Assembly: GCF_010119975.1 (NCBI RefSeq)
Contig: NZ_CP048222.1
Location: 744,001 to 808,000 of the forward strand
Length of the DNA: 64,000 nucleotides
Direction of reading: 5' to 3'
Source of the DNA: Rhodocytophaga rosea
GTDB taxonomy: Bacteria > Bacteroidota > Bacteroidia > Cytophagales > 172606-1
Position numbers and translations under genes: made by a program. The notes under the pieces are model-generated. The model was not told the DNA's origin. It made no database searches and was given only the letters and a program-made list of their open reading frames with translations. Below, in pieces: positions 13,928-48,951 of the stretch. Every line of letters starts with the position of its first letter. Position 1 is the first letter of the stretch.

Positions 13928-16279
13928 TTAATTTTTATTAAGTATCTGCCACCATTTTTTTGATTTCTTCTGCTCTTGATAATAATAGGAACCATATTTT
14001 GAGACACCATAGCCGATCAAATTATCCATCTTCATATCATTCAATAAAATTGCCATATTACGTATCTTATGAATCCGATATATATCGTTCAAATGAGCTA
14101 AAAAAGACTTCTCAGTATAACTTTGCCTTACAACAACAATATTAATATCAGCATACTTCATCAATTCCAGGCCATCAGATATAATTCCAATAGGTGGAGT
14201 ATCTATGATAACACAATCAAACTGATTATGAATCTCATTTAAAAGTTTACGCATCTGACTACTTAGTATCAATTCTGCAGGATTTGGTGGTATATGCCCT
14301 GACCGAATAAGAGATAAGTTTTGTATTTGAGTTGGATTGATAATATCAACTATGGAAACATTGCCTGCGAGATAATTACTTAAGCCTAATATCTTTAAAT
14401 CAGCCGATAATTCAGTTTCATTTATTTTTCGCATGTCTGCCTGAATTAAAACAGTTTTTCTGCCAGCTGCCGCCAATATAGAGGCCAGATTTTCTGCACA
14501 AAATGATTTACCTTCGCCACTAACAGCAGAAGTAACCAAGATTATTTTAGACTGATTCGTACTGCTGGATAAAAAGCTAAGATTTGACCTGATTGAGCGA
14601 AATGACTCTGCTAAGGCACTTTTATGATTTTCATCATTCAATAATTTATTTTTTAGTTTACTATGTACCACCATACCCAACACCGGTAAAGCTGATAACT
14701 TGAGTATATCATCTTTTGTAGCAATTTTAGTATCCAATAAGTCAGTAAGAAATATGAGGCCAATTGGAATAATTAGACCTATAATTATGGCAGTCAGGTA
14801 ATTCTTCATTGGGCGTGGTTTAATAGGAACACCTGATACCCTGGCACGATCCACTATTTTAAAATCGGAGGTGTTAGAAGTCCTTGTGATCTCAGCTTCA
14901 GCCCGCTTCTGCATTAAAAACTGTACTAAACTTTCACTGATTACATAATTTCGTTTGATGTCTACTAATTTTCGTTCAGCTGATGGTAATTCCTTTTGTG
15001 AGGCTAGGTGAGTATTTATTTTATTAGTTATATTGTTAATGGTAAGTGCATTAGCCGCTTTCAAGCCTTGTATTTTTTTCTGAATACTGTTTTTAAGCTC
15101 TGCTATTTTCTGTTCATTAACTTGAATATAAGGGTTCTTTAATTTATTATCTGACTTTAATAATTTATTTTCTAGTTGAGTGGCCACCAGATTTTCAATA
15201 GTTGCCTCTAAGCCTGGATCTTTTATGGATAAGTAAGGAGGGATTACAATCTGATCAACCTCATTGTTTTGTTGTAAAGTACTGGTAATAAAATCATAAT
15301 AGCGGTTTGCCATTAATAAATTTGCCTTTTCCTGTTCTAGGGCACGTATATCTGTATATAATTGATTTCCTTGTTCGCTCAGATCAATAGAAGGATTCTG
15401 ACCTTTAAATTGCTCTAACTGAAGCTCAATAAAATCAAGAGAATCAGTATTCATTGCCAGTTGCTGATTAATAAAGTTTACCGTTTTATCAGAGGCAATA
15501 TTCTTTTCTTTTATATCTTCATTAATAAAATTAATTACGTGCTGGTTTAAAAAGTCTATTTCTTTTGCCGGAGTTTCACTTATCATAGAAAGAAAGATTA
15601 CAGAGGATTCTTTATCATCTGCTTCAATACCCAGGTTATCTTGATAATGTTGTATAATGTTATTGATATCATTTACCTGAAATATTATTTCTTCATTTTC
15701 AATGACATTAAGATTATTTAAGTAAGCAGTAAAAGTAAAACCATTAATTTTTGCTGCCTTTCCAAATGCATAAGTTTTATTTTTAAAGTTAACGTCTTCC
15801 TCATTCATCTTCACTGAGAAAGTTTTTTTGTTGTTGATTACGCAAATAATAGGTTGATTATATGGAATGGTCTCTGAAGTAGTATCTGGTACAATTGTTA
15901 TAGGGCTATCTTTATATAATTCATAAACTTTGATATTTCCCTCTTTGAAATATGATACTTCTAAAGTCAGACTTTTTACAGTAGCTTCAACTAGTGAAAA
16001 CGAGTTAAGTTTAATTACCTCAGCAGCTAAATTGGTTCCAGTTGCATTTTGTTCGAATAACAGAGCAGCAATATTGGGGTTCTCTTTGGGTTGTTTTACA
16101 TAAATGGAGGTACTAATATAATATTCAGGAACGGTATATCTATTTACAAGATAGGCTATAGCTAAACATATAAATACAGATAATGCCAGTATATGCCATT
16201 TACGAAAAACTTTCTCTGCTATTTTACGCAGCTCAAAAAAGCTATCTTGATTTTGGCTATTTACATAATCTTCTGCCAC
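13928..16279 (-). CDS. Wzc-like polysaccharide co-polymerase and tyrosine autokinase
   Basis: A 783-residue bacterial tyrosine kinase fused to a Wzz-type chain-length domain. It has a first membrane helix at about 30-47, a long periplasmic coiled-coil region (about 260-465), a second helix at about 494-512, and a cytoplasmic kinase domain. The kinase shows Walker A AVSGEGKS (585-592), Walker A' LIQADMRK (611-618) and Walker B CVIIDTPP (689-696). The C-terminus has a tyrosine cluster (Tyr757, 762, 765-767) suited to autophosphorylation. It controls polymer length and couples to the export lipoprotein encoded 7 bp upstream. It lies second in the operon, the standard Bacteroidota order. Full length, with no defects seen. 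Confidence 0.95.
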   Translation of the reverse strand: MAEDYVNSQNQDSFFELRKIAEKVFRKWHILALSVFICLAIAYLVNRYTVPEYYISTSIYVKQPKENPNIAALLFEQNATGTNLAAEVIKLNSFSLVEATVKSLTLEVSYFKEGNIKVYELYKDSPITIVPDTTSETIPYNQPIICVINNKKTFSVKMNEEDVNFKNKTYAFGKAAKINGFTFTAYLNNLNVIENEEIIFQVNDINNIIQHYQDNLGIEADDKESSVIFLSMISETPAKEIDFLNQHVINFINEDIKEKNIASDKTVNFINQQLAMNTDSLDFIELQLEQFKGQNPSIDLSEQGNQLYTDIRALEQEKANLLMANRYYDFITSTLQQNNEVDQIVIPPYLSIKDPGLEATIENLVATQLENKLLKSDNKLKNPYIQVNEQKIAELKNSIQKKIQGLKAANALTINNITNKINTHLASQKELPSAERKLVDIKRNYVISESLVQFLMQKRAEAEITRTSNTSDFKIVDRARVSGVPIKPRPMKNYLTAIIIGLIIPIGLIFLTDLLDTKIATKDDILKLSALPVLGMVVHSKLKNKLLNDENHKSALAESFRSIRSNLSFLSSSTNQSKIILVTSAVSGEGKSFCAENLASILAAAGRKTVLIQADMRKINETELSADLKILGLSNYLAGNVSIVDIINPTQIQNLSLIRSGHIPPNPAELILSSQMRKLLNEIHNQFDCVIIDTPPIGIISDGLELMKYADINIVVVRQSYTEKSFLAHLNDIYRIHKIRNMAILLNDMKMDNLIGYGVSKYGSYYYQEQKKSKKWWQILNKN

Positions 16280-16286
16280 AAATTTA

Positions 16287-17063
16287 TTATTTTAAGATTT
16301 GGAATAAAATCAGACTTATGCTTGCAGCTACAGACACAATAACACTAATGGTACTCATTTGATTCTGTCGAACATTCTTCGCTTTTAAAGGATCTACCAT
16401 AACAATATCATTTGGCTGCAAGAAGTATTGGTCAGAGAGTAATACATTATCTTCCAGCACATTTAATTTAAATATTTTGGCTGTTTCATTTTCGTGGCGA
16501 ATTATTCGGATATTGGCACGGTCTGCAAAGTCGGTTAATCCTCCTGCCCGGCCTAGCGCTTCTAATAAATTAACTTTAGCTTCAGTAGCTGTATATGTGC
16601 CTTGTTGATTTACCTCACCTAATATAGTAAAGCTAAAATTAGTTAATTTGATGCTTATCGTAGGGCTTTTCAGATAATCTATTGATAATTCTTTTAGTTT
16701 TTCTTCTGTTTCTCGGATGGTAAGCCCTCCTACTTGTATATATCCCAAAACAGGTAGCTCAACCCGGCCTTGTTTATCCAGCTTTAATTCTATTTCCGGA
16801 GCACCAAAAAAGTTGAACTTTTCTTGTGTTAAGCTAAATATACGAACCATAATCCGGTCGCCTGACCTCAAATGGTATTCTGTATCTTTCAATTTGAAAG
16901 TTTTACCCACTTCTTTACCAGAATTTATTATGTCAGCTTCGTTATCCTGTAAATTAACTAGCTTTTTACCACTAATGCAGGAAGCAATAGAGAAAATTAG
17001 CAAGCAAAAAAACAAGATTCGGATTGATACCATTGTATTATTAGTTAAAAGAAATTTATGCAT
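16287..17063 (-). CDS. Wza-like polysaccharide export lipoprotein
   Basis: A 258-residue outer-membrane export protein of the polysaccharide biosynthesis/export family. A lipoprotein signal peptide ends in the lipobox IASC with Cys29 if translation starts at 17063; an internal Met at 17033 would give a 19-residue signal and is equally plausible. The Poly_export domain (about 65-145, with YHLRSGDRIMVRI) is followed by a SLBB-type domain (FTILGEVNQQGTY) and a C-terminal hydrophobic helix (about 238-256). This short form with a C-terminal helix is usual in Bacteroidota. It is the first gene of the minus-strand operon and would form the exit channel with the Wzc-like kinase. Confidence 0.92.
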   Translation of the reverse strand: MHKFLLTNNTMVSIRILFFCLLIFSIASCISGKKLVNLQDNEADIINSGKEVGKTFKLKDTEYHLRSGDRIMVRIFSLTQEKFNFFGAPEIELKLDKQGRVELPVLGYIQVGGLTIRETEEKLKELSIDYLKSPTISIKLTNFSFTILGEVNQQGTYTATEAKVNLLEALGRAGGLTDFADRANIRIIRHENETAKIFKLNVLEDNVLLSDQYFLQPNDIVMVDPLKAKNVRQNQMSTISVIVSVAASISLILFQILK

Positions 17064-24013: not shown

Positions 24014-24877
24014 GAGAACGTTTTGAAATATTATACTGGTTTTCTTTTAAGCAGTGTGTCAATAAAGGCTAATTGTAGCATAGCTTCCGAACTTTCTGTG
24101 CTTTTCTCAAAGTCACGGCTCAATCTACGCTTAAAATTGAGCCATCCGTAACTGCGTTCTACCACCCAACGGCCTCCTGCCGGCACAAAGCCCTTTACGC
24201 TTTCAGGCTTTTGTACAATTTCTACCTTCCATCCATAGTCTCTTTCTATCTCTTCTACAAAGGTATCTTTGTAGCCATTATCTGCTTTTAGTGTATGTAG
24301 GCGGCAAGACTTACCCTTCAGCTTAGCTGCTAACTCATAACCGGCTGTAGTGTCTGACACATGGGCGGCTGTTACATGCACAGCCCAAGGAATACCTAAA
24401 CAATCCACTGCTAGATGTCTTTTTCTGCCATTCACCTTTTTGTTGCCATCTATGCCCTTGTCTTGGGAAGTAAACTGTACAATCTTTACACTTTGACTAT
24501 CAATAGCTAACACGCTTGGCAAGGCTTGTCGGCCTGCTTTTTTTCTTTCTCTGATTGCTAAAAAAGCCAACAGCTCTTCGATGATGCCTCGCTTCTTCCA
24601 CTGCCTGTAATGGTAATAAATGGTTTGCCAGGGTGGGTATTTACTTTCCATGTTGCGCCATTGACTACCTGTAGTAAGTAGCCATAGAATAGCATTAAGA
24701 ATAACACGTTTGTCATGTTTGATTTTTCTTTGGTTATCTACTACTTCCTTGATAATTTCCCACTCACAATCAGTGAGTTCGAAGAATCTTTCTTGCATAA
24801 AACTTTTTGGTTGGACACCACAAGTTTACTCACTGATTCTTTCTTTTACCCTATTTCTATCCTTTCAAAACATTCTC
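24014..24877 (-). mobile_element. IS5-family insertion sequence (IS1031-like), 864 bp
   Basis: A complete insertion sequence. Inverted repeats at 24014-24028 (GAGAACGTTTTGAAA) and 24863-24877 match with one difference. TTA flanks both sides (24011-24013 and 24878-24880), fitting the 3-bp TNA target duplication of IS1031-type IS5 elements. One intact transposase gene fills the element. It lies 36 bp upstream of the start codon of the giant secreted-protein gene, in the same orientation. Confidence 0.9.
24031..24798 (-). CDS. IS5-family DDE transposase
   Basis: A 255-residue transposase catalysing cut-and-paste movement of its element. An N-terminal DUF4096-type region (with SQWRNM and PPWQTIYYHYRQW) is followed by an RNase-H-like DDE domain with Asp100 in LAIDSQS, Asp173 in KADNGYKD and Glu214 in VVERSYGW. 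The sequence is intact and the ends of the element are recognisable, so it is probably active. Its stop codon is about 17 bp inside the left end, so transcription from the element could run on into the secreted-protein gene. Confidence 0.95.
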   Translation of the reverse strand: MQERFFELTDCEWEIIKEVVDNQRKIKHDKRVILNAILWLLTTGSQWRNMESKYPPWQTIYYHYRQWKKRGIIEELLAFLAIRERKKAGRQALPSVLAIDSQSVKIVQFTSQDKGIDGNKKVNGRKRHLAVDCLGIPWAVHVTAAHVSDTTAGYELAAKLKGKSCRLHTLKADNGYKDTFVEEIERDYGWKVEIVQKPESVKGFVPAGGRWVVERSYGWLNFKRRLSRDFEKSTESSEAMLQLAFIDTLLKRKPV

Positions 24878-25673: not shown

Positions 25674-28600
25674 TTAATGAATTATCAATTTGCTTATATT
25701 GGTTTGATCTCTATATCTAGTTCTAACTATATATATACCTGTCGGTAATTCCTGTAAATTAATGGTAAGTGTATTTTTACTTATTACACCTTGAACAGTT
25801 TTTCTGGTTATAGATAAATTATCAATGAAGGACACTTCCACTACTTCGTCTGCCCCATATGGAAAAACTATATTTAACAGGCCTTTAGCAGGATTAGGGT
25901 ATAATTGTATATTTTCTGCTTTCACTGTCTCAATATCATTGCCAACCCGTCCGTTAGAGCTAGACAGAGGGTATAGATAATTCTTAGGAATGATCTGTTT
26001 TGCCTGCCTTGCGCTACTCCAATATAATTTGGAAATAGCACCGCCACCATCCTCAAAATACTCAATCTTGATTGAATACTTCTGCCCCGCTGTAAGAGTG
26101 ATATTTCCATTGGTTTCTGAATGAGACCGATTCCAGTTATTAATAAGTTGCTGGCCATTTACCCATAATCTGACTCCATCATCTGAAAGAATGTGAAAAG
26201 TATATGGTTCACTATACAAAGCTTGAATCTGTCCCTCCCAACGAACGGAAAATTGATCTACACCCATACTGCTAGTCGGAGCAAAGTTACCCCAATCAAA
26301 ATTTACAGTTGCATCAATTCGCTTCATAGTACTTCCGGTTAAATCCATATTATCATAATATGTAGCACTTAACCCTGTTCCTTCTGAAGGAGTAGGAGTT
26401 GTAGTGGTAGAATTCCTATACAAAACAGAGGCAGGAATAACTTGCTTATTAATATTTGATGCTGAATAACTCACACTTAGAGCTTCACCTCCATCATCTT
26501 CAAAATAAGTTACACTAAAACTATGTTTACCTGCTTTCAAGCCAATTTTTCCTGATTTCTCAATGGATCCATGCGAACCACCATTATCTACTACTAGAGT
26601 ATTGCCTATGTATAAGCGGCTGCCATCGTCTGAAGTTGTATAGAAAGTATATTCTCCATCAGTGGGTACCGAAATATAGCCATTGAATCTGAATCCATAA
26701 AAATCATTCCGGTTACGGTTTGCGAGACTAATAGAAGTTACAGTACCGTTTTTAAAAGCTGTTAAGCTATTAAAATCAGGAATATCACTCCATGTACCTT
26801 CATAATAACTATAATCTAATCCATTGGTAGTATTAGCAGGATTTTCTGGTGTACGTAGCGTAGTTGTAGGTGGAGGAGTGGTACCACTTACCACAGTTCC
26901 ATTAGTACGGTACCAGTTATCCCATCCGGAGATCTTGTAGATACGCACCTCATTTTCAGCTCCCCCGTAATAATACACCGTGCCATTGCTTGGATCCTCA
27001 TACAAGCCTCCTGCCCCATTCTCACTAGACTGCGTGTAAGCCGTCATAGGAGCCACCGAGGTATTGGGGTTATCAAACAAGCCCCCTACCCATAAGCCAT
27101 CCTTGTCCCATACATAGGTGAAAGCCGTCCAATCTGTACGTCCGTTGTAACCTCCATTAAAGTCAGCTGCCACCACACATTCATGCACCACGCCTACCGT
27201 GTTTTTGAAAGCAGACCATATTTCTCCGGGCAGAATGGTATGGTTCATATCATAATAGTTTTTGGTTTTGGTATTTCTACCGGCTCTCCAGGCTAAAGTG
27301 CCATCGGCATTGAACTTGAGCAGGTGGACTTCTTCAGGAGCACCCCAACCTTTGTCTCCCATCCCTACAGCTGTATATAAGGGATAGCCTACTCCCTCAG
27401 TAGCAAAATAGTGTGAAGCAACATATGCATTAGACTGGCCATTGGATTTAAGCATAAAAGCAGGCCAGGGAGCAAAGTCTTTGGCCGGAAAGTCTTCATA
27501 AACCGGTGAGCCGGCTCCATTCCACTCCCTTACTTTTAGCATAGCTATTGTTCCCAGAGAATACCTGTCATAAATGTAAGTAAAATCAGGCATTACTCTT
27601 AGATTACGGATATACGGCAGATATTTAATTCTGCGTTTTTCGCTATCCTGTAAGAGTCCATCTCCATTGCCATCCGTCCAGATCGCTCCATAGTTATAGT
27701 CATTATTGTCGTAACCAAACCGGATATTTACTGCAGGCATTAATCTCCAGTTACTCTCATCTACTTTAATAATTTTAACTTCTGGCTCTCCTGCCCCCAT
27801 ATCAAAGCAGAGATAGGTGGTATTATTGTGCACCAAAGGCTTCCATACACTCAGGCCTGTGCCCATCGAACCATTGTAATGCATCTTGCTTTCTGAAAGC
27901 AAATTGATGTTATACACTGAATGTACACTCCAGGACTTGCTTGCTAAATCTACCTTGGCTCTGATCAGACACGAATTGCCTAAAGTAAGCCATACTACCG
28001 TAGGATCATTCTGCTCTGCCTGACCGAAAGCCGTCCAGGTGGTGCCCCCACTAACTCCTTGACCAAACTTCCACTTGCATTGATGTAAGCCACCCGGGGA
28101 ATGGCACGCTTGCCCGGCTCAGTCACATAAAAGCCTCCTTTGTTGTCTGAACATATATCAGAAATATCATAAAAGTCTGTAGCCACATGCAAACCAAAAG
28201 CTCTGCCGGTTTTTCTGCCATAGCTTTTAAGCAAGCTGCCCGAGGAAGAAAACTTCTTGACCTGATTGCCCCCTGCTTTTTCAGCTACTAAGATCTCTCC
28301 TGTGCTTCGGTCCACATCCAAACGCCAGGGAGCATCTAAAGCTGTCGCGGCAATAACCTGCACCAGGGTTTTGTTACTTCTTGAAAAGCGTACTACTTTT
28401 CCTTCAGAGATAGCCAGCACATTGCCTGCATTGTCAATGGCTACTCCCAATGGAGCAGGAATGGTTACCTGGTCTAAAACAGCCCCATTAGCCGGGTTAC
28501 GCCACTGGATCAGGTTCTGTTCTTTGTAGCTGATCACTAGATGAGAAGTGGTGGCGATGCGGGCTCCGGCCATGTCCATGAGTTGCATCATGGCGATCTG

Positions 28601-29311
28601 GCCTCTGCCGGGTCTGGTTTTGCCCGGATACAGGGCATCCCATCGGCTGCCCACATAGTTGGCAGAGGTCCCCACTGACTGATACATTCTATTGATCTCG
28701 CTTGTCGAGTGAAAGGAGACATAGCCATCGGCTTGCAAGCCATAGATTTTGCCTTCCAGGATGGTACGGGCAAAATAGCCCTGACCTATATCCGGCTGCC
28801 AGCCGCTAAAAACCAGCTGTGAAAGTGACCGGTCAAGCTTAACCTGGGTGCGGACATTTTCTCCACCTCCGGCCGCCACATAGGCATGGGTTTCATCCAC
28901 AGCTACCGAACTGGTGCCCTCATGATTGCCTAAACCTGATTCCCATTGGCGGTTGGCGCCATTAGGATAACTCGAACCTACCCCCGTGATGAACTCTGCC
29001 TGCAGCCCTGAAGGGGTTTTGAGCAGTTTCCATTTGTATTGTAAAGGATTGGCTAAGGTGTTGCCTTTGCCATCTTTGCCATCCCAAAGCAGGTTATAGC
29101 TGCCTGCATTCTGGCTTTGTCCATGGAGGAGTTCCCGCACAATGGCTCCTTTCTCATCATAGATATTGACGGAGACTTTACCGGAAGAGGGTAAGGAGTA
29201 GTTGACGTAATAGGATTGAGCCATGCTCAGGTATGGCAGCCATAGTAAGATTAGCAGCAGCGCCAGGGGAAGGCGGCTCCTGGTATAAGTAGGTGAAGGA
29301 CATCTATCCAT
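25674..29311 (-). pseudogene. Frameshifted T9SS surface protein: propeller, two PA14, type A sorting domain
   Basis: Restoring one base gives a protein of about 1212 residues. It has a signal peptide (1-32), a FlgD/Ig-like domain (about 33-95), a propeller-like region to about 804, two PA14 domains (about 827-962 and 979-1117) and a T9SS type A sorting domain (about 1127-1212, with YPNPAKGLLN). The break is at 28045-28049, where five C (G on the coding strand) occur against six in the intact paralogue at 34866-34871. The first open part (27995-29311, 438 codons) then ends after a short out-of-frame tail, and the remainder is open from 27917. There is no other lesion, so the change is recent, phase-variable or a sequencing error. 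The first 2.44 kb is nearly identical to the paralogue ending at 36133. Confidence 0.85.
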
Positions 29312-29339
29312 TTTTTCTCTTTTTAAAAGTGTATATTTT
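26897..29339. repeat. Long direct repeat, copy 1 (2443 bp, N-terminal surface-protein module)
   Basis: Collinear with 33718-36161. It covers the first ~804 codons and 28 bp of leader. The only net length difference is the single C at 28045-28049. Large parts, including both sides of position 28805, are almost identical, but differences cluster in a few patches, notably 28805-28844. Confidence 0.95.
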
Positions 29340-30329
29340 ATAATAAGTCAGTAATAGCTTCATTTATTCCTTAACAGGATAATTGCATAAATATCCACCT
29401 AATCACTTTAAGTGTAGCATTTATACTGTCTGGTATCTTTTATTAATAAATAGTGCTTAATGTATATAAGCAATAGCTGGAGGTAAAGAGATAATATAAC
29501 CTTATAGATAGATTGTAAAATTGTGGTCAATCAAAGTTAAATATGCCTATTATTAATAGATATAATTTACTTACACACAAGAGATTGATTTACAGATTGT
29601 ATAACCTTATCAATAATGATTATTTTCTCTTAATAAGAATTTCATTTAAGGAGATAGTTTCGAAGAGAATATAGCTAATCCAAGGATAAGCCTTTTAGCA
29701 ATCTATTACTTACTCCATTAAACGAACTCTAATTTACAATTTAATTTAACAGTATAATATATACTTCTTAAATAGTAGAGGAACCATTGATAAGTATTCA
29801 CCTGGGGATGAGGACGGGGAATTTCTTGCAAATAAATGCAGTTTAGTTTTAAGCGATTTCATAATGCAAAATTTAAGTGTATTTATAATTCTAGCACATG
29901 GGTCTTGTCTTAGTTAGACAAAGATTAATTGTAATATAAAACAAATAGCATTAGTACTTTAGTATTAATCTTATTGATTAAATTATTAACTTAATGAATT
30001 ATTATTTAATAACAAGCTCTAATACAAGCAAATACAATGACATTCAAATTAGTATAAGAATTGAACAAATAAATCAAAACAGATATTTACTGTAGTAAAT
30101 TTATTGTATATTTTTTATCAAAATTAAAGTATTCTTATAAAGCATCATTGTATTCTATATTTGAATTTTATTTAAGCACTAAATATAAAAATAAATGATC
30201 AATAGTTTCATAGTCGTATGTACGAGTTCAAAGCTATAAATCAAAAGATTAAATGCAACTAATTGCTAAAAATTCATTATATATTACACTTATATATTGA
30301 TATATTTATATTATTAGCTAAAAGATATA
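29340..30329. other. Intergenic DNA between the two module-sharing surface genes
   Basis: About 1 kb of very AT-rich DNA with no credible open reading frame or RNA gene. The promoter of the frameshifted surface-protein gene must lie at the left end. The leader shared with the paralogue stops at 29339, so any promoter beyond that is not shared. Confidence 0.5.
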
Positions 30330-30373
30330 AAAGTATCAAGGTTAGTTTAAGATAACTAAACTTTGATACTTTT
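30330..30373 (-). terminator. Terminator hairpin after the SprB-repeat gene
   Basis: Arms about 30330-30347 and 30354-30373 pair over about 19 bp with a one-base bulge, flanked by A and T runs. It lies about 60 bp beyond the stop codon of the minus-strand gene ending at 30434. Confidence 0.65.
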
Positions 30374-30433
30374 ATAAACAAAATAAACATGGACGTATAC
30401 TATTAATTTCAGAATAACTCAAATTTTAATCTA

Positions 30434-33400
30434 TTATCTAATTAAGGTTATAGTTCCTGTTTTGATAGTAATTCGTTTATTACTTTTAATTACATAATAA
30501 TAAGCTTCAGCAAGTAAAGGCTTTCCTTCAAATCTTCCATCCCAGTTGTTAGTATATGGTTTAGCTTGAAATACTTTACTTCCATTTCTATTAAAGATGA
30601 TTACTTCATATTCAGGATGTAACTCAATATTGTCTATCTTCCAAAAATCATTAACGCCATCCTCATTGGGAGTAAACAAATTATCAGGCTTTAAAACTAT
30701 TTCCTGATTTAGTAGAGTAGAACCCTCTAAAATATAAAAGGTCACGGTTAAAGCTGTACCTGGAACATTAGATTTATTGTAAGGGATTGCAGATAATGTA
30801 TATTTTCCCGGGGCTAAATTCCAAGGGCTGAAGTCTTCATAATTATTTCCTGATAGTGAGTATGGAGCAGTATATTCAATTACATATTCAGTATTACCAT
30901 TTAACCCAAACTGAACTTTACTGATAGCATCAGGAGAAGTGGTATTAGCCCGCATATTTAGATTACGGGTAGGCAAAGCAGATAGGATAAGGCTATCTCC
31001 ATTGCGTACCGGATTAAAAGAAGCGATAGGCTGATCGGTATCGGCATTGATCAGGCTGAAGCCGAGGACTGCTACAGGTTCTGTTTTATTGACAAGAACA
31101 GTTTGGCTAACTGAGCATTTATTTTGATCGGTTACTGTAACCGTATAGGAACCGGCAGTAATGCCAGTCAGGTCTTTGGTAGTAGCCCCATTAGACCACA
31201 GATAGGTATATGCTCCAGTTCCTCCACTCACCGTTAGGGTAATCGAGCCATCCTTACCCACAGCCGTTTCATTGCCTGTTTTATTACTAATAATTATTGC
31301 TTGAGGTTGAGTGAGGCTAAGGCTTTTGCTTACTTTGGTTCCTGCCTGATCGGTTACTGTAACCGTATAGGAACCGGCCTGTAAGCCAGATACAGAGGCC
31401 GCAGTAGCTCCGCTAGACCATTGATACGTATAAGGTGCCACCCCTCCACTAACCGTAGCTGATACACTGCCATTATTTTGTCCATTACAAGTGATGTTTG
31501 TAGCGTTAGTAGTAAGAGACAAAGAAGTAGGAAGGGTTACCTTTTCAATAATATAAAAAGTGATGGTTAAAGCTGTACCTGGAAGATTAGATTTATTGTA
31601 AGGAATCGCTTTTAGTATATATTTTCCGGGTGTTAAATTCCATTTAATATAATCATTGTCAGTATCTCCTGCCAAAGAGTAAGGGGCTACAGCTTCAACC
31701 CGGTAATTGGTAGTGGTATTCAAATCAAACTGGACTTTACTGATAGCATCAGGAGAAGTGGTATTAGCCCGCATATTTAGATTACGGGTAGGCAAAGCAG
31801 ATAGGATAAGGCTATCTCCATTGCGTACCGGATTAAAAGAAGCGATAGGCTGATCGGTATCGGCATTGATCAGGCTGAAGCCGAGGACTGCTACAGGTTC
31901 ATTTTTACTCACCACAATGGTTTGGCTGGCTGTACATTTATTTTGATCGGTAACTGTAACCGAATAGGAACCGGCAGTCAAAGATGTCAAATCTTTAGTA
32001 GTAGCTCCATTAGACCATAAGTAAGTATAAGTCCCGGTTCCCCCACTTACCGTTAAACTGATAGATGCATCCTTGCCCACAGCTGTTTCCTGTTTTACGG
32101 TTGTAATGATTTTAATAGGAAGAGGTTGATAAATAACTATTGTCTTGAGCTGTTTATTACCTGCCAAGTCAGTTACCGTTACCGTATAGGAATCTGCTTT
32201 TAATCCAGATACAGATGCTGTTGTAGCTCCAGTAGACCATAAATAAGTATACGGAGATATCCCACCTGAAGCAGTTACTGAAGCAGAAGCATTGCTTGCT
32301 CTATAACAGGTTACATTCTGAGAACTTGCAGCGATGGTTAAGGGAACAGTTGTTTTACTCACCACAATGGTTTGGCTCGCTGTACATTTATTTTGATCGG
32401 TAACCGTAACCGAATATGAGCCTGCAGTTAGCGCCGTTATGTCTTTAGTAGTAGCACCATTGGACCACAGGTAGGTAAATGCTCCAGTTCCCCCACTTAC
32501 TGTTAGGGTAATCGAGCCGTCTTTTCCTGCTACTGTTTCACTTGCTGTCTTATTTGTGATTGTAATAGCTAAAGGTTGTGTAAGGGTAATAGTTTTTGTT
32601 TGTGTAAGACCAGCTTTATCTGTTACAGTTATAGAATAATCGCCAGCTTTCAAGTAATTGATTTGAGCTGCACTTGTACCGTTAGACCAGGCAAATGTAT
32701 AAGGTGCTGTTCCTCCAGTAGCTGTTGCAATTGCACTTCCATCAGTTATTCCATTACAGGTAACATTAGTAAAAGTAACACTAATAGTAAGCGGAACATT
32801 TTTACTCACTACGATGGTCTGGCTGGCGGAGCATTTATTTTGATCAGTGACAGTAACCGAGTAGGAACCGGCAGTAATGCCAGTCAGGTCTTTGCTAGTA
32901 GCCCCATTGGACCACAGGTAGGTATATGCTCCGGTTCCCCCACTCACCGTTAGGGTAATCGCTCCATCCTTACCCACAGCCGTTTCATTGCCTGTTTTAT
33001 TACTAATAGTTATTGCTTGAGGTTGAGTGAGGCTAAGGCTTTTGCTTACTTTGGTTCCTGCCTGATCGGTTACTGTAATCGTATAGGAACCGGCCTGTAA
33101 GCCAGATACAGAGGCCGTAGTAGCTCCGCTAGACCATTGATACGTATAAGGGGCTACCCCTCCACTAACCGTAGCTGATACACTGCCATTATTTTGTCCG
33201 TAGCACGACACGTTCTGTAAACTTGCAGTGATAGTTAAGGGAGCAACTGTTTTACTCACTACAATAGCCTGGCTAGCTGAGCATTTATTTTGATCGGTTA
33301 CTGTAACCGTATAGGAACCGGCTGCAATGCCAGTCAGGTCTTTGGTAATAACCCCATTGGACCATAGGTAGGTATATGCTCCAGTTCCCCCACTCACTGT

Positions 33401-36133
33401 TAGGGTAATCGAGCCATCTTTTCCTGTTATACTTTCAGAAACAGTTGTACTGCTAACTGCTAATATTTTAGGTTGAGCGAGGGTAACTTCTTTACTTAAT
33501 TTTACACCTATTTTATCAGTAACGGTTACAGAATAAGTACCTACTTCTAACCCTGAAACAGCGGCTGTTGTTTGCCCATTGGACCATAGATACGTATAAG
33601 GAGCGGTACCTCCAGTAACCGAAGCAGAGATACTGCCATTATCTAATCCATAACAAGTTACCTGCTCAAGTGTTGTAGCGATATCTAAAGATGCACCAAC
33701 AGTTGTATTAGCTACCATTCCATTAGTACGGTACCAGTTATCCCATCCGGAGATCTTGTAGATACGCACCTCATTTTCAGCTCCCCCGTAATAATACACC
33801 GTGCCATTGCTTGGATCCTCATACAAGCCTCCTGCCCCATTCTCACTAGACTGCGTGTAAGCCGTCATAGGAGCCACCGAGGTATTGGGGTTGTCAAACA
33901 AGCCCCCTACCCATAAGCCATCCTTGTCCCATACATAGGTGAAAGCTGTCCAATCCGTGCGCCCATTATGGCCTCCATTAAAGTCAGCTGCCACCACACA
34001 CTCATGTACTACACCTACCGTATTTTTAAAGGTAGACCATATTTCTCCGGGCAGAATGGTATGGTTCATATCATAATAGTTTTTGGTTTTGGTATTTCTA
34101 CCGGCTCTCCAGGCTAAAGTGCCATCAGCATTGAACTTGAGCAGGTGGACTTCTTCAGGAGTACCCCATCCTTTGTCTCCCATCCCTACAGCTGTGTATA
34201 AAGGATGCCCTACTCCTTTAGAAGCGAAAAAGTGACCAGCGCCATACACGTTAGACTGGCCATCGGATTTGAGCATAAAAGCAGGCCAGGGAGCAAAGTC
34301 TTTAGCCGGAAAGTCTTCATAGACCGGTGAGCCGGCTCCATTCCACTCCCTTATCTTTAACATGGCTATTGTTCCCTTAGATTCTCTGTCATATACATAG
34401 CTGAAATCATCCATTACGCGAATATTTTTAACATACGGCAAGTATTTGATTCTGCGTTTTTCGCTATCCTGTAAGAGTCCATCTCCATTGCCATCGGTCC
34501 AGATCGCTCCATAATCATAATCATTGTTATCAAAGCCAAAGTAAGCAATTACTGCAGGTAATAATTTCCAGTTACTCTCATCTACTTTGAGTACTTTTAT
34601 TTGATTTTGACCGGATCCCATATCAAAGCAGAGATAGGTGGTATTATTGTGCACCAAAGGCTTCCATACACTCAGGCCTGTGCCCATCGAACCATTGTAA
34701 TGCATCTTGCTTTCTGAAAGCAAATTGATGTTATACACTGAATGTACACTCCAGGACTTGCTTGCTAAATCCACCTTGGCTCTGATCAGACACGAATTAC
34801 CCAAAGTAAGCCATACTACCGTAGGATCATTCTGCTCTGCCTGACCGAAAGCCGTCCAGGTGGTGCCCCCCACTAACTCCTTGACCAAACTTCCACTTGC
34901 ATTGATGTAAGCCACCCGGGGAATGGCACGCTTGCCCGGCTCAGTCACATAAAAGCCTCCTTTGTTGTCTGAACATATATCAGAAATATCATAAAAGTCT
35001 GTAGCCACATGCAAACCAAAAGCTCTGCCGGTTTTTCTGCCATAGCTTTTAAGCAAGCTGCCCGAGGAAGAAAACTTCTTGACCTGATTGCCCCCTGCTT
35101 TTTCAGCTACTAAGATCTCTCCTGTGCTTCGGTCCACATCCAAACGCCAGGGAGCATCTAAAGCTGTCGCGGCAATAACCTGCACCAGGGTTTTGTTACT
35201 TCTTGAAAAGCGTACTACTTTTCCTTCAGAGATAGCCAGCACATTGCCTGCATTGTCAATGGCTACTCCCAATGGAGCAGGAATGGTTACCTGGTCTAAG
35301 ACAGCCCCATTAGCCGGGTTACGCCACTGGATCAGGTTCTGTTCTTTGTAGCTGATCACTAGATGAGAAGTGGTGGCGATGCGGGCTCCGGCCATGTCCA
35401 TGAGTTGCATCATGGTGATCTGGCCTCTGCCGGGTCTGGTTTTGCCCGGATACAGGGCATCCCATCGGCTGCCCACATAGTTGGCAGAGGTCCCCACTGA
35501 CTGATACATTCTATTGATCTCGCTTGTCGAGTGAAAGGAGACATAGCCATCGGCTTGCAAGCCATAGATTTTGCCTTCCAGGATGGTACGGGCAAAATAG
35601 CCCTGACCTATATCCGGCTGCCAGCCACTGGCAATGCTCTGCGTTAATTCTAAGTTGAACTTGCCATGGGTGCGGACATTTTCTCCACCTCCGGCCGCCA
35701 CATAGGCATGGGTTTCATCCACAGCTACCGAACTGGTGCCCTCATGATTGCCTAAACCTGATTCCCATTGGCGGTTGGCGCCATTAGGATAACTCGAACC
35801 TACCCCCGTGATGAACTCTGCCTGCAGCCCTGAAGGGGTTTTGAGCAGTTTCCATTTGTATTGTAAAGGATTGGCTAAGGTGTTGCCTTTGCCATCTTTG
35901 CCATCCCAAAGCAGGTTATAGCTGCCTGCATTCTGGCTTTGTCCATGGAGGAGTTCCCGCACAATGGCTCCTTTCTCATCATAGATATTGACGGAGACTT
36001 TACCGGAAGAGGGTAAGGAGTAGTTGACGTAATAGGATTGAGCCATGCTCAGGTATGGCAGCCATAGTAAGATTAGCAGCAGCGCCAGGGGAAGGCGGCT
36101 CCTGGTATAAGTAGGTGAAGGACATCTATCCAT
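30434..36133 (-). CDS. Giant T9SS type B adhesin-like protein with SprB repeats
   Basis: A 1899-residue secreted protein. Signal peptide 1-32; FlgD/Ig-like domain about 33-95; propeller-like region to about 805; eight alternating SprB-type repeats (about 814-1401, two subtypes recognisable by CYGQNNGS and GKDGSITL); a domain beginning FSLINADTDQPI (about 1411-1524); two more SprB repeats (about 1534-1681); a second copy of that domain (about 1686-1804); and a gliding-motility-associated C-terminal domain, the T9SS type B signal (about 1815-1899, with FTPNEDGVNDFW). SprB repeats are known from the Flavobacterium gliding adhesin, so surface adhesion or gliding is inferred. The first 2.44 kb is shared with the frameshifted neighbour, which has a different C-terminus and sorting type. 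The six-C run at 34866-34871 keeps this copy in frame. Confidence 0.9.
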   Translation of the reverse strand: MDRCPSPTYTRSRLPLALLLILLWLPYLSMAQSYYVNYSLPSSGKVSVNIYDEKGAIVRELLHGQSQNAGSYNLLWDGKDGKGNTLANPLQYKWKLLKTPSGLQAEFITGVGSSYPNGANRQWESGLGNHEGTSSVAVDETHAYVAAGGGENVRTHGKFNLELTQSIASGWQPDIGQGYFARTILEGKIYGLQADGYVSFHSTSEINRMYQSVGTSANYVGSRWDALYPGKTRPGRGQITMMQLMDMAGARIATTSHLVISYKEQNLIQWRNPANGAVLDQVTIPAPLGVAIDNAGNVLAISEGKVVRFSRSNKTLVQVIAATALDAPWRLDVDRSTGEILVAEKAGGNQVKKFSSSGSLLKSYGRKTGRAFGLHVATDFYDISDICSDNKGGFYVTEPGKRAIPRVAYINASGSLVKELVGGTTWTAFGQAEQNDPTVVWLTLGNSCLIRAKVDLASKSWSVHSVYNINLLSESKMHYNGSMGTGLSVWKPLVHNNTTYLCFDMGSGQNQIKVLKVDESNWKLLPAVIAYFGFDNNDYDYGAIWTDGNGDGLLQDSEKRRIKYLPYVKNIRVMDDFSYVYDRESKGTIAMLKIREWNGAGSPVYEDFPAKDFAPWPAFMLKSDGQSNVYGAGHFFASKGVGHPLYTAVGMGDKGWGTPEEVHLLKFNADGTLAWRAGRNTKTKNYYDMNHTILPGEIWSTFKNTVGVVHECVVAADFNGGHNGRTDWTAFTYVWDKDGLWVGGLFDNPNTSVAPMTAYTQSSENGAGGLYEDPSNGTVYYYGGAENEVRIYKISGWDNWYRTNGMVANTTVGASLDIATTLEQVTCYGLDNGSISASVTGGTAPYTYLWSNGQTTAAVSGLEVGTYSVTVTDKIGVKLSKEVTLAQPKILAVSSTTVSESITGKDGSITLTVSGGTGAYTYLWSNGVITKDLTGIAAGSYTVTVTDQNKCSASQAIVVSKTVAPLTITASLQNVSCYGQNNGSVSATVSGGVAPYTYQWSSGATTASVSGLQAGSYTITVTDQAGTKVSKSLSLTQPQAITISNKTGNETAVGKDGAITLTVSGGTGAYTYLWSNGATSKDLTGITAGSYSVTVTDQNKCSASQTIVVSKNVPLTISVTFTNVTCNGITDGSAIATATGGTAPYTFAWSNGTSAAQINYLKAGDYSITVTDKAGLTQTKTITLTQPLAITITNKTASETVAGKDGSITLTVSGGTGAFTYLWSNGATTKDITALTAGSYSVTVTDQNKCTASQTIVVSKTTVPLTIAASSQNVTCYRASNASASVTASGGISPYTYLWSTGATTASVSGLKADSYTVTVTDLAGNKQLKTIVIYQPLPIKIITTVKQETAVGKDASISLTVSGGTGTYTYLWSNGATTKDLTSLTAGSYSVTVTDQNKCTASQTIVVSKNEPVAVLGFSLINADTDQPIASFNPVRNGDSLILSALPTRNLNMRANTTSPDAISKVQFDLNTTTNYRVEAVAPYSLAGDTDNDYIKWNLTPGKYILKAIPYNKSNLPGTALTITFYIIEKVTLPTSLSLTTNATNITCNGQNNGSVSATVSGGVAPYTYQWSSGATAASVSGLQAGSYTVTVTDQAGTKVSKSLSLTQPQAIIISNKTGNETAVGKDGSITLTVSGGTGAYTYLWSNGATTKDLTGITAGSYTVTVTDQNKCSVSQTVLVNKTEPVAVLGFSLINADTDQPIASFNPVRNGDSLILSALPTRNLNMRANTTSPDAISKVQFGLNGNTEYVIEYTAPYSLSGNNYEDFSPWNLAPGKYTLSAIPYNKSNVPGTALTVTFYILEGSTLLNQEIVLKPDNLFTPNEDGVNDFWKIDNIELHPEYEVIIFNRNGSKVFQAKPYTNNWDGRFEGKPLLAEAYYYVIKSNKRITIKTGTITLIR
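30915..31081. repeat. 167-bp direct repeat, copy 1
   Basis: This segment matches 31734-31900 base for base as far as I can compare. It encodes the FSLINADTDQPI half of the second such domain in the SprB-repeat protein. Identity beyond what selection would require indicates recent duplication or gene conversion. Confidence 0.9.
31734..31900. repeat. 167-bp direct repeat, copy 2
   Basis: Partner of 30915-31081, in the first FSLINADTDQPI domain. The sequences diverge sharply on both sides of the 167-bp block. Confidence 0.9.
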
Positions 36134-36161
36134 TTTTTCTCTTTTTAAAAGTGTATATTTT
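33718..36161. repeat. Long direct repeat, copy 2 (2444 bp, N-terminal surface-protein module)
   Basis: Partner of 26897-29339. Homology begins in the codons just after the propeller-like module and ends 28 bp upstream of the start codon. On both sides the flanking sequence is unrelated. Confidence 0.95.
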
Positions 36162-39333: not shown

Positions 39334-40203
39334 ATGGAGCATCAATTAGTGCCAAATAAGGCAAAAAAATGGACGCTAATCATTAAACCGAAAACAAATT
39401 GGTTTGATCTACATCTGTATGATCTGTGGCGCTACCGCGACTTGCTTTTTATGTTTGTAAGGCGGGATTTTGTATCTGTCTATAAACAGACTATACTAGG
39501 GCCACTGTGGTTTATTGTCCAGCCTTTGCTTACTACGCTAATGTTTATTATTGTTTTTGACAAAGTAGCAGAAATTCCAACAGACAGTGCGCCTCCGGCT
39601 TTATTTTATTTATCTGGTTTAGTGATATGGAATTATTTCTCCAGCTGTTTAACTAAAACAGCAACCACCTTTACAGCAAATGAAAATCTCTTTGGCAATG
39701 TTTACTTTCCAAGATTAATTGTTCCCTTATCAAATGTACTCTCAGCCTTGATAGGATTTGGTATTCAACTGCTGTTGCTACTGGTTTTAATCGCGTACTT
39801 TTATTTCTTTTTAAACAGTACCATACATTTTAATACTTATATATTTCTCATTCCTTTTCTACTACTAATTGTTGCAGCATTAGGACTTGGATTAGGAATA
39901 ATTATCTCGTCTGTAACAACCAAATACCGCGACCTAACTTTTTTAATTACTTTTGGGGTACAACTCCTCATGTATGCAACGCCGGTTATTTATCCAGTAT
40001 CCTTTTTTAAAGGAAAATACAAAGCTTTTCTTTTAGCGAATCCTATTACACCGCTGATAGAAGTTTTCAGATACTCCTTATTAGGAATCGGAGAATTTAA
40101 TATCTGGTACATCTCCTATAGCTTTTTATTTACATTTATCACTCTTCTGATCGGTATTTTAATATTTAATAGGGTAGAGAAAAACTTTATGGATGTTATT
40201 TAA
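39334..40203 (+). CDS. ABC-2 type polysaccharide export permease (Wzm-like)
   Basis: The membrane subunit of an ABC transporter that moves finished, lipid-linked polysaccharide from cytoplasm to periplasm. It has 289 residues and six predicted membrane helices; the cytoplasmic N-terminus includes LYDLWRYRDLLFMFVRRDF, the usual pre-helix motif of Wzm/TagG-type permeases, followed by YKQTILGPLWFIVQPL. The ATPase gene follows after 6 bp, so the two are coupled. First gene of the plus-strand locus. Confidence 0.93.
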   Translation: MEHQLVPNKAKKWTLIIKPKTNWFDLHLYDLWRYRDLLFMFVRRDFVSVYKQTILGPLWFIVQPLLTTLMFIIVFDKVAEIPTDSAPPALFYLSGLVIWNYFSSCLTKTATTFTANENLFGNVYFPRLIVPLSNVLSALIGFGIQLLLLLVLIAYFYFFLNSTIHFNTYIFLIPFLLLIVAALGLGLGIIISSVTTKYRDLTFLITFGVQLLMYATPVIYPVSFFKGKYKAFLLANPITPLIEVFRYSLLGIGEFNIWYISYSFLFTFITLLIGILIFNRVEKNFMDVI

Positions 40204-40209
40204 AACAAT

Positions 40210-41517
40210 ATGTCAGAAGTAGTAATCAGTGTAGAGGGCTTAGGTAAAAGATACCGCCTGGGAAGTATAGGTACTGGTACCCTAAGCCAGGATTTAAATA
40301 TCTGGTGGGCTAATTTGAGAGGAAAAGAAAACCCGTACGCAAAACTGGAACCAGACTATCCTACTCACTCTAAAGACAATGAATTCTGGGCTTTAAAAGA
40401 TTTAAATTTTGAAATTAGCCAAGGGCAGGCAGTGGGTATTATTGGTATGAATGGGGCAGGAAAGTCTACCTTGTTAAAAATTCTATCCCGCATAACAGCA
40501 CCTACCTTAGGTGAAATAAAAGTAGACGGGCGTATAGCAAGCTTACTGGAAGTTGGAACTGGATTTCATCCGGATTTAACAGGCAGGGAAAATATTTTCC
40601 TTAATGGGGCTATTTTAGGCATGTCAAAGTTTGAGATCAGAAGTAAACTAGATGAAATTATTTCGTTTTCGGGTGTGGAAAAACACATTGATACACCTGT
40701 GAAACGCTATAGCAGCGGAATGCATGTCCGCTTAGGCTTTGCCGTGGCTGCCCATCTGGAACCTGAGATTTTAATAGTAGACGAGGTTTTGGCAGTTGGC
40801 GATGCTGAATTTCAAAAGAAATGTATAGGTAAAATGAAGGAAGTAGCCGGAGAGGGCCGCACTATCTTATTTGTAAGCCATAATATGGCAGCTGTTGCAA
40901 AACTTTGTAGCAGAGCGATTTTATTAAGACAAGGAAAAATACACTTAGACAGCACGGTAGATGATGCAATAGGAACATACCTTAATTTGTTTTCTAAAGA
41001 TTCAAAGCCTGAAATTACCTGGGAGTACTTTGGGCAATCCGTGGATAATGTCCAGATAATTGCGTTGAGACTTTTGCGGGAAGACGGAACGATTTGCGGC
41101 CATTTTTACATAAATGAAAATTTTTATATTGAAATTGAATACATAAATTTGAAAGAGGGCTTATTACTGTCCAGCTATTTTGAGCTTCGAAGTTTACTGG
41201 AAGCAGGAGTATTGTCATCAGCCAACTGGGCATCCGCTACGGCAAACGAAGATAATTATTCAAATACCGCTTTTAAAAAAGGAAAATATAAGTCGCGTAT
41301 GAAAATTCCAGGCAACCTTTTAAATGAAGGAACTTACCGAATTAATGCCTGGATACTGGAAAATGTATCTGCTACGGCTGCAGAGGCCAAAGAACCGCTC
41401 ATGGTTACTATTGTTGATACTGGAGAAATGAGAAAAGAGTATACCGGAGAATGGTTTGGCGTAGTGCGCCCAAAACTGGAGTGGTATACCAAGGCAATCA
41501 ATGATGAAAAGCTATAA
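40210..41517 (+). CDS. ABC polysaccharide exporter ATPase with C-terminal binding domain (Wzt-like)
   Basis: The ATP-hydrolysing subunit of the exporter. Walker A is GMNGAGKS (79-86), the ABC signature YSSGM is at 167-171, Walker B ILIVDE at 187-192 and the switch histidine at 224. Residues from about 255 to 435 form an extra beta-rich Wzt_C-like domain. In characterised systems this domain recognises the modified non-reducing end of the glycan and so couples chain termination to export; methyltransferase genes downstream fit that logic. It pairs with the permease gene just upstream. Full length and intact. Confidence 0.93.
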   Translation: MSEVVISVEGLGKRYRLGSIGTGTLSQDLNIWWANLRGKENPYAKLEPDYPTHSKDNEFWALKDLNFEISQGQAVGIIGMNGAGKSTLLKILSRITAPTLGEIKVDGRIASLLEVGTGFHPDLTGRENIFLNGAILGMSKFEIRSKLDEIISFSGVEKHIDTPVKRYSSGMHVRLGFAVAAHLEPEILIVDEVLAVGDAEFQKKCIGKMKEVAGEGRTILFVSHNMAAVAKLCSRAILLRQGKIHLDSTVDDAIGTYLNLFSKDSKPEITWEYFGQSVDNVQIIALRLLREDGTICGHFYINENFYIEIEYINLKEGLLLSSYFELRSLLEAGVLSSANWASATANEDNYSNTAFKKGKYKSRMKIPGNLLNEGTYRINAWILENVSATAAEAKEPLMVTIVDTGEMRKEYTGEWFGVVRPKLEWYTKAINDEKL

Positions 41518-41604
41518 AACAATAAAGAGTATAGCTTTCCATATATGCATACATGTTTTAAATAGATAAACAGGCGAACGATTACTAAGAATCAATTCTG
41601 CATT

Positions 41605-42465
41605 ATGACTTCTACTACTCAGCCTTTTGTAAATTCACTTATTTGCCCGGTTTGTAAAGGAAAAATTGAGTATACAGATGATATGATAAGCTGCCTTTCA
41701 TGTCACTCTCAATTTCCTCAGCCAAAAAAAGAATACATTAATTTGTTACCCCATGAAGCAATAAATAAAAAAGAGGGCAACTGGCAGGAGAGGCAGCAGG
41801 AGATGGAGCTTTGGTATAAAGATCTGTTGACAGATATAAATTCAGCTGTATCTCTTTTTAAGCATGATTATGCCCCTTTTAGCGATTATTTTGCCAAATT
41901 GTCGGGAAATATATTGGATCTGGGAGGTGGAGTCGGAGTGGTAAGACATTATCTGCCTGAAAATTGTAATTACATAGTGGTAGATCCATCTACGGATTGG
42001 CTTAGCTCTGACTGGAATTTGCTTTCAAAATCGTACCCATGTTTAGCTGAAAAACCAAATTTTATTATGGGGGTAGGTGAATTTTTGATGTTCAATGATA
42101 ATTCCTTTGATTCTGTGCTTGCTTTCTGGAGTATAAACCATGTAAACGACCCTTTGAAAGTATTTAAAGAAGTACAAAGAGTATTAAAACCCGGTGGAAA
42201 ATTCCTGGTCGTATTTGAGGATATGGAACCCTGGTGGAGCGATTTTTTAAGTAGCTCCATGCGTCGCCAGTTTGAGCAGGAAAGACTAAAGGAAATGATC
42301 GATCAGAAGATAAAATCTAGTTTACTGGGAAACAAATGGCCAGTACAGGCTGATCATATTTTCATCACAGATAAAGATATAAAAGAGTGGATTAATAACC
42401 GTTTTGAGAAAATAAACAGGCAATGGATAGGAACCTATTTAACCTATGAATTTAAAAAAAATTAA
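41605..42465 (+). CDS. SAM-dependent methyltransferase with N-terminal zinc-ribbon
   Basis: A 286-residue class I methyltransferase. An N-terminal Trm112-like zinc-ribbon has Cys14, Cys17, Cys30 and Cys33. The SAM-binding motif is LDLGGGVGV (about 104-112), followed by an acidic residue in VVDPS, a post-I FDSVLAFWSINHV segment and RVLKPGGKFLVVFED. In this locus it may methylate a sugar of the polysaccharide, possibly as the terminating modification read by the Wzt-like domain; that is inference. It starts 87 bp after the ATPase gene. About 290 bp without a gene follows. Confidence 0.85.
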   Translation: MTSTTQPFVNSLICPVCKGKIEYTDDMISCLSCHSQFPQPKKEYINLLPHEAINKKEGNWQERQQEMELWYKDLLTDINSAVSLFKHDYAPFSDYFAKLSGNILDLGGGVGVVRHYLPENCNYIVVDPSTDWLSSDWNLLSKSYPCLAEKPNFIMGVGEFLMFNDNSFDSVLAFWSINHVNDPLKVFKEVQRVLKPGGKFLVVFEDMEPWWSDFLSSSMRRQFEQERLKEMIDQKIKSSLLGNKWPVQADHIFITDKDIKEWINNRFEKINRQWIGTYLTYEFKKN

Positions 42466-47840: not shown

Positions 47841-48951
47841 TATAAGTAATTAAACACAATTAAGTATAATATTTTCATCTACTTCAAGTTTTTTAAAATC
47901 AAGTTTAAAGTAAGTACCCAATCCTGAAAAGATGGTATAAAGTGCCTCCTTAAGCGCTTCTACAGACAGATAGTCTTCGGCTTTGAGCCAATGATATTTC
48001 ACCTGCTTCCAAAATCGTTCGATCCTGTTAAGATGAGGACTATACTTAGGCAGCAAAAAGATGTATAATCCTTTCTGTTCCCATTCTTCTTTTTTGACTT
48101 CCCATAGGCCACATGTATGCCAGGAGGCGTTGTCTAAGACTATGACAGTAAACTTGGAAATAGATGTTGAGAAGGCCTCTACACATTCAATGATAAAGTC
48201 AGCGTTTAGACTCCCACTTTTCTGATAAGTAAGCAACTCATTATTTGTACTTAACAAGCCAAATACATTTATCCTTGTACTTCTTTGGGATAAAATAGGG
48301 GCGTGTTCGCCTTTTTTGATCCATCCATAAGGTACACAAGGGGTAAGGCAAAACCCTGATTCGTCTCCAAAATATAAATCTATACTGCCTGTCTGTGCCA
48401 AATAAAGCAAAGCATGTAATCGCTTGACTTTCTGCTCATATGCTTCTTTGTTTTGCAATGGCTTTATCCATTTACGGAAACGTTTCCATCGGTAGTCAAT
48501 TTTTTTAAAAACCGCTTCAAGGTCATCTCACTCATAGCCGTGCCTAATTTAGCTTCTATCTCTCGCTTAGCTAATTTAAGTTGTTGTTTTTCTTTCTCTA
48601 TGCTATTTTCCACTACTTCAACATGGGTAGCATTACTGGTAGTAAGGATGGGTTTTCTGCCTTTCCCTTTTTGGTTCTTTAACCCTACCACACCTGTTTT
48701 CTCAAAGCGATCAAACCACTTATAAATACTTAACTGACTTACTTGAAAAATGCTTGCTAACTTCTGTACTTGATAGCCTTGATTGGATAACAGTATACAT
48801 TGGCAACGGTTACGTTCCTGATAACTTTTACTATCTTTATGAATCTTCTCTAAGTCTTGTTTTTGCTTGTCTGTAATCTTCTTGATATAACGCATAAGCA
48901 AAGATACAATTTGCCAAAATCTTATACTTAATTGTGTACTCTTACTTATAT
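47841..48951 (-). mobile_element. IS630-family insertion sequence, about 1.1 kb
   Basis: Inverted repeats TATAAGTAA followed after four bases by ACACAATTAAGTATAA occur at 47841-47869 and, reversed, at 48923-48951. The ends include TA, fitting the TA target duplication of IS630/Tc1-mariner elements. The element contains one transposase read in two frames. It sits about 30 bp upstream of the start of the truncated surface-protein remnant and directly abuts the start of a degenerate IS5-like transposase. Confidence 0.85.
47850..48895 (-). CDS. IS630-family transposase, probable -1 programmed frameshift
   Basis: The N-terminal part (start ATG 48895, frame ending 48464) contains helix-turn-helix DNA-binding segments (YQVQKLASIFQVSQLSIYKWF). 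The C-terminal part (frame ending 47850) contains the DDE/D catalytic domain with GDESGF, VLDNASWH and PHLNRIERFWK. They join at T-TTA-AAA-AAA (coding strand, 48500-48507), where a -1 shift changes KKLTTDGN to KKIDYRWKRFRKW, the sequence expected for the family. The fused product is about 345-350 residues, normal for IS630. Such slippery-site frameshifting is known in IS elements; here it is inferred from the motif. The stop codon lies inside the left inverted repeat. Confidence 0.85.

Follow-up and report, generated by a model that had tools for sequence, protein, structure and literature searches.

Two neighboring surface-protein genes of Rhodocytophaga rosea share one N-terminal head on different tails with different T9SS sorting types, and this arrangement is likely the outcome of an old duplication of the head, its union with different tails by domain shuffling, and a later, partial, and recent gene conversion confined to the head. 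The evidence is a mosaic of near-identical tracts and strongly diverged patches within the shared head, found together with tails that resemble those of other proteins in the same genome.

The Shared Head and Its Genomic Context

The window analyzed was a 64,000-nucleotide stretch of the genome (contig NZ_CP048222.1, positions 744,001 to 808,000), and window coordinates are used throughout unless stated. The gene pair comprised the following features:

26897..29339, minus strand: copy A head with its 28 bp leader, 95% identical to copy B and split over two reading frames
25674..26896, minus strand: copy A tail, encoding a pair of PA14 domains and, at about 25680-25904, the T9SS type A sorting domain, with an open frame of its own
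27995-29311, minus strand: copy A ORF 1, 438 aa, without a sorting domain
25674-27917, minus strand: copy A ORF 2, 747 aa from a GTG
33718..36161, minus strand: copy B head with its 28 bp leader, encoding a likely signal peptide (by eye), an FlgD-type Ig domain, and a propeller region
30434..33717, minus strand: copy B tail, with SprB repeats in ten stretches followed by the CHU_C / T9SS type B sorting domain at about 30443-30688
30434-36133, minus strand: copy B ORF, intact, 1899 aa, with the head, the SprB stretches, and the type B domain

Both genes lie in tandem on the minus strand with copy A downstream of copy B, such that the two heads form direct repeats with a start-to-start distance of 6.8 kb. 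The heads (26897-29339 and 33718-36161) were collinear and 95% identical over 2443 bases, the shared block measuring 2443 bases in copy A and 2444 in copy B. Identity started exactly 28 bp before each ATG (29311 in copy A and 36133 in copy B) and stopped after the codons for ...WYRTNG, which is the end of the head. A likeness of the two heads by chance is excluded. A sequence-only reading of this DNA had described one 2.44-kb N-terminal module on two surface-protein genes, with sharp homology edges that included one 28 bp upstream of the ATG, and the collinear alignment with edges at the leader start and the head end bore out both points. The self-search that had been proposed as a check was performed on the 8.98-Mb single-contig genome at the DNA level (33 of 33 candidates scored) and returned exactly two head copies, with neither a third copy nor a silent cassette. 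A search of the genome with the head protein added only one match, covering 58 query residues in the Ig part, and the head had no match in the plasmid collection.

Genes for polysaccharide were present on both sides of the surface-protein cluster (12564-17063 and 39334-42465), the related families being Wzz/AAA, Poly_export, and Polysacc_synt_3; and an ABC-2 plus ABC_tran pair with a methyltransferase. An IS4/IS5-type transposase gene lies just downstream of copy A (24031-24798, minus strand) and a second transposase (47850-48967, minus strand) extends over two ORFs, one with the HTH part and one with the DDE_3 part, which we presume may be a normal frameshifted IS630-type element. Scans for sigma-70 promoters and terminators gave the same counts as in shuffled sequences.

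Tails and T9SS Sorting Signals

The different C-termini and sorting types that had been read from the sequence were confirmed by family matches, with two PA14 domains and type A in copy A versus ten SprB stretches and CHU_C / type B in copy B. The copy A C-terminus matched TIGR04183 / PF18962 in a frame that differs from that of the gene start as assembled, and the copy B C-terminus matched TIGR04131 / PF13585 in frame with the signal peptide judged by eye. The copy B tail also contained five 300-nt direct repeats (31084-33549) that were 70-92% identical to the reference copy and spaced by 819, 450, 447, and 450; given such internal repeats, the SprB stalk may lengthen or shorten.

Both tails resemble tails on other heads in the same genome. 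Over 998 aligned residues, the copy B tail shared 50% identity with a 2271-aa protein encoded at 8.71 Mb whose N-terminal part is different. The alignment starts at residue 812 of copy B, shortly after residue 805, where the head ends. Over the last 95 residues of the two proteins, 65 of the 88 aligned residues were identical, the sorting domains being 74% identical. The locus is arranged as follows:

L098:3829-10644 (8.71 Mb): 2271-aa SprB/type B protein, then a PorP/SprF gene at L098:2301-3767

A PA14 region of copy A shared 58% identity across 156 residues with that of a GSDH-domain protein encoded in the same genome. GC3 was about 0.53 in the large tracts of the head, 0.43 in tail A, and 0.29 in tail B.

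In Flavobacterium johnsoniae, type A signals use PorV and type B signals use PorP/SprF-family shuttles, with 3 of 12 type B genes being orphans and similar type B signals able to share shuttles (PMC12618676). On that scheme, the cell would display the same head through PorV where the signal is type A and through a PorP/SprF-family shuttle where it is type B (PMC12618676). No PorP/SprF gene was found next to copy B or elsewhere in the window, and four PorP-family loci over the cut-off were present in the genome, one of them beside the SprB protein at 8.71 Mb. Because the sorting domains are 74% identical, copy B would probably use the shuttle encoded beside this related SprB protein. A putative adhesin or glycan-binding role of the head might be guessed from its domain company.

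A Mosaic of Identical Tracts and Divergent Patches

The differences between the heads were unevenly distributed, and the tracts and patches that carry the argument were:

28845..29339, minus strand: converted tract 1, all 495 bases matching copy B 35667-36161
28805..28844, minus strand (copy B 35627-35666): patch 1, 23 of 40 columns differing, between identical runs of 495 and 210
28050..28804, minus strand: converted tract 2, matching copy B 34872-35626 at 753 of 755 bases, with two single substitutions
27306..27795, minus strand (copy B 34127-34616): patch 2, 490 columns, 82% identical, dS 0.64, dN 0.12
27072..27212, minus strand (copy B 33893-34033): patch 3, 141 columns, 88% identical, dS 0.78, dN 0.02
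26897..27071, minus strand: converted tract at the head 3' end, 175 bases identical to copy B 33718-33892

The head alignment comprised 2445 columns with 133 substitutions and two gap columns (one at the very edge), and these 135 differing columns were strongly clustered. Identical runs of 495, 428, 210, 175, 155, and 115 columns alternated with the three divergent patches, and the longest run was reached in none of 10,000 shuffles, the shuffle maximum being 249. The same pattern was observed at the 358 four-fold sites, where patches 1, 2, and 3 had 0 of 1, 12 of 55, and 8 of 22 positions differing, against 3 of 280 in the tracts, and where the observed longest unchanged run was reached by 4 of 10,000 shuffles. 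Tract dS was 0 to 0.01 in four stretches and 0.08 in a short one (columns 1476-1661). In patch 1, synonymous change was saturated and dN was 0.61 on 15 codons, and dN/dS was about 0.02-0.19 in patches 2 and 3. Two hallmarks of gene conversion were found, namely sharp-edged identical tracts alternating with diverged patches beyond chance and synonymous divergence near zero in the tracts and high in the patches. Judged by these substitution rates, patches 2 and 3 are old and were under purifying selection and the tracts are recent. As the old patches lie within tracts of near-zero dS, two old and separately diverged heads would seem to have been partly overwritten.

Two other causes of the identical tracts were considered and set aside: selection at the DNA level, which would hardly place a dS near 0 beside one >0.6 without a functional border; and mis-polishing with short reads, since runs of 428 and 495 bases would exceed usual short reads.

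The patches were also compared with nine relatives of the head, the partial heads L025 and L032 being left out in addition to the two loci omitted from the structure alignment (see below). In patch 2, copies A and B were identical at 131 of 163 residues and each matched the relatives at 29-49 of 150-157; in patch 3, they were identical at 46 of 48 residues and matched the relatives at no more than 31 of 46. A and B are thus mutually closest in patches 2 and 3 alike, and patch 2 came from no distant source. Its GC3 was 0.37-0.39 in both copies, below that of the large tracts (about 0.53), and goes beyond what conversion alone explains. In patch 1, A and B shared 4 of 14 residues, a number equal to that shared by B with three of the relatives, and this hairpin could be a separate replacement.

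An AlphaFold model of the copy B head, built on a 12-sequence alignment for which L031 (match hull of 1137 residues, longer than the head) and L033 (51 residues) were left out of the 13 loci, had a pLDDT of 84.2 and a pTM of 0.88. Patch 1 corresponds in this model to one beta-hairpin at mature residues 124-137. The matches listed by Foldseek against the PDB included tandem-propeller proteins such as 1nr0 (two seven-bladed propellers), with a TM-score of at most 0.47 by query length among the best 50 rows, and support only the general fold of the model. Among PDB sequences, a profile search returned chiefly NHL-type propellers and FlgD, with no full-length relative.

Relatives of the Head and Domain Shuffling

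The head was present in three sister-genus genomes at about 40% identity. Matches were found in 4 of 148 relatives, 5 of 390 genomes of the order, and 1 of 395 genomes of the phylum, with at most six candidates per genome scored in the first of these searches and at most two in the others, the own genome being counted in each case and the fifth genome of the order (G272) having a weak partial match of 90 bits. In an alignment search of a contig collection, in which records near the own genome may be left out, 13 of 37 stretches encoded relatives with 40% or lower identity in the best segment; a pattern search of this collection matched seven stretches, none of which encodes a relative. The sister-genus contigs were titled Cytophagales bins, and the head also occurred in a few bins labeled Chthoniobacteraceae, Verrucomicrobia, Planctomycetota, and others. 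The relatives and order searches yielded no head in the genus mate G001, and a syntenic locus was not recovered there, the homologs of two flanking genes lying on separate contigs and no neighbor in three G001 stretches matching an ORF of the 18-36 kb region. The nearest relatives are about 40-42% identical, and no strain or ortholog near enough to polarize the tracts or to reveal the state before conversion was found.

The sister-genus heads carried other tails or none: a malectin domain and type A sorting domain in L016 and no tail in L015, L017, and L019. In L014, the head is followed by an N-gap and then by Big_7, PA14, and type A domains, a connection across the gap that we infer. In a sister-genus genome, about L020 7514-9277 (G004:C193) holds a decayed head whose match is interrupted by 12 stops. 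Because sister-genus heads and same-genome tails occur in other combinations, heads and tails are generally recombined in this protein group.

The Frame Break in Copy A and Assembly Quality

The net one-base difference between the two collinear modules, as it had been described before, is a reading-frame break inside copy A. The collinearity was upheld, and copy A as one gene was not, as it forms two ORFs in the assembly; as assembled, its start would yield a 438-residue protein without any sorting domain. The relevant sites were:

28045..28049, minus strand: frame-break site of copy A, a five-G run with six G at the same place in copy B
L077:15292-16886 (genome 7315292-7316886), minus strand: atpD (F1 beta subunit), split in two frames at a five-C run

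The break sits inside a converted tract and, if real, is for that reason probably younger than the conversion of its tract. A coding-frame scan of 464 kb (the window plus 20 stretches of 20 kb), which gave 140 rows at an arbitrary score threshold, also recovered the copy A break. Hand grouping of the rows without a nearby ATG, to which the check for runs was confined, gave 12 frame-switch places, several of which are doubtful as gene breaks. At 3 of the 12, a five-base G or C run lay within 20 bases, and G/C runs of exactly five numbered 146 in the 464 kb, or about one per 3.2 kb. The three run-associated places were copy A, atpD, and L075, the last an unconfirmed break without a family match in either part. 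The two atpD halves cover profile positions 2-117 and 109-462, and this is the only clear F1-beta gene in the genome; the other matches to the family were weak (96 and 34 bits) and would represent the alpha subunit and another ATPase. The atpD split is most probably an assembly error and, since a cell with a single, broken F1-beta gene is implausible, the assembly probably contains uncorrected single-base losses at G/C runs.

The copy A frameshift is accordingly graded as most likely an assembly error at the G run. That it is a real break, which would make copy A either a true pseudogene of recent origin or a phase-variable gene with the G run as its off switch, is rather doubtful. The break is present in the assembled sequence at such a run, and no further interruption is seen downstream before the type A domain ends, as in a very recent loss. 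Against this, the single atpD is broken alike at a five-base C run, which would be hardly tolerable for a respiring cell, and three of 12 frame-switch places, one of the three unconfirmed, lie near five-base G/C runs that occur only about once per 3.2 kb. For contingency loci, runs of 5-6 would be short. The finding is a warning that this assembly has frame breaks at short G/C runs, atpD included.

Origin of the Gene Pair

In the likely sequence of events, a gene whose secreted product contained an Ig domain and beta-propellers would have been duplicated in the lineage of this bacterium and the two heads joined to different tails by ordinary domain shuffling. Both heads would then have diverged for long under purifying selection, as recorded by the dS of 0.64-0.78 in patches 2 and 3, before conversion between the tandem repeats replaced several stretches of one head with the sequence of the other, as recorded by the tracts with dS of 0-0.01. 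The conversion would presumably be RecA-dependent, and its direction likewise is a presumption. The edges of the block would be the ends of homology between the two genes, and sharp edges are then expected without a cassette mechanism, because conversion must stop where homology ends. The earlier proposal of a cassette exchange onto alternative stalks holds insofar as recombination occurred between the heads and one head is carried on two stalks and sorting types, but a recent exchange of the head as a whole is not the reading that best fits old patches (dS of 0.64, 0.78, and a saturated 40-bp patch) amid tracts mostly at dS 0-0.01. Old, separate lineages without recombinants, the observation that had been named as speaking against the proposal, were half borne out: the genes look old, but recombination occurred.

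A recent copying of the head cassette, in which the whole head from the 28 bp leader to the head end was placed before another tail and patches were later imported from other strains by homologous recombination, is an unlikely alternative with several observations on its side. Import of patches into a recently duplicated head would give the same mosaic, the large tracts have dS near 0, and GC3 differs among the head, tail A, and tail B as for modules of different origin. The coincidence of the block edges with the leader and the domain end also fits, yet sharp edges are equally expected where homology ends, and the copying requires a precise recent fusion at the domain end plus about three imports. 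The patch dS of 0.64-0.78 further needs donors that had diverged to that extent, yet were closer than any relative found. A still smaller chance is given to a maintained double display, in which recurrent conversion would keep one head functionally the same on the PorV/type A and SprF-like/type B routes and selection would protect a few patches, above all the 40-bp hairpin, so that the heads differ just at a binding surface.

Least probable, and by our estimate very improbable, is an active switching in which recurrent crossover or conversion between the 2.44-kb direct repeats swaps head alleles or tails and varies the surface within the population. Long identical tandem direct repeats favor homologous recombination, a dS of 0 makes some tracts look very recent, and a crossover between the repeats would join the copy B start to the copy A tail. 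However, only two copies exist, one of them frameshifted as assembled, and patches 2 and 3 are constrained (dN/dS of 0.02-0.19) rather than hypervariable. Neither several cassettes nor silent copies were found in the genome, and nine ORFs of 18002-42465 searched with Pfam included an IS transposase and no site-specific recombinase.

Comparison With Known Systems and Significance

The closest parallel is the mtrA-1/mtrA-2 pair of methanogens, described as paralogs in which a distinct domain was gained by shuffling and fusion and the common domain was homogenized by conversion (PMC4632066). Both pairs are paralogs of different architecture with a homogenized common domain, but mtrA encodes an archaeal methyltransferase subunit and its conversion persisted through two lineages (PMC4632066), whereas the present case concerns one genome, a secreted propeller protein, a partial conversion, and tails of different T9SS class. 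Concerted evolution of prokaryotic paralogs is alike in that paralogs are nearer to each other than to orthologs; the cases in the portion of that work cited here are recurrent, long-lasting, and spread over many species, whereas no orthologous pair was found for the present genes (PMC6053082). As here, Bacteroidota surface proteins of Porphyromonas gingivalis are varied by domain rearrangement and recombination, but the sections cited report a strain comparison with exchange inferred via horizontal transfer and not two neighbors in one genome (PMC5266723). F. johnsoniae likewise has both type A and type B T9SS substrates; its reporter proteins were fused to either CTD type, and in the excerpt of that study a natural one-head pair was not noticed (PMC12618676). 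Among the best-ranked papers in the literature searches, none described a natural pair in which both sorting types carry one head.

The gene pair is a case of two T9SS proteins with different tails whose shared domain has undergone partial concerted evolution, and in which an apparent cassette exchange is explicable by partial gene conversion between old paralogs. It provides a clean natural case of one surface head on both T9SS sorting classes and can serve to ask what difference the sorting class makes to a constant head.
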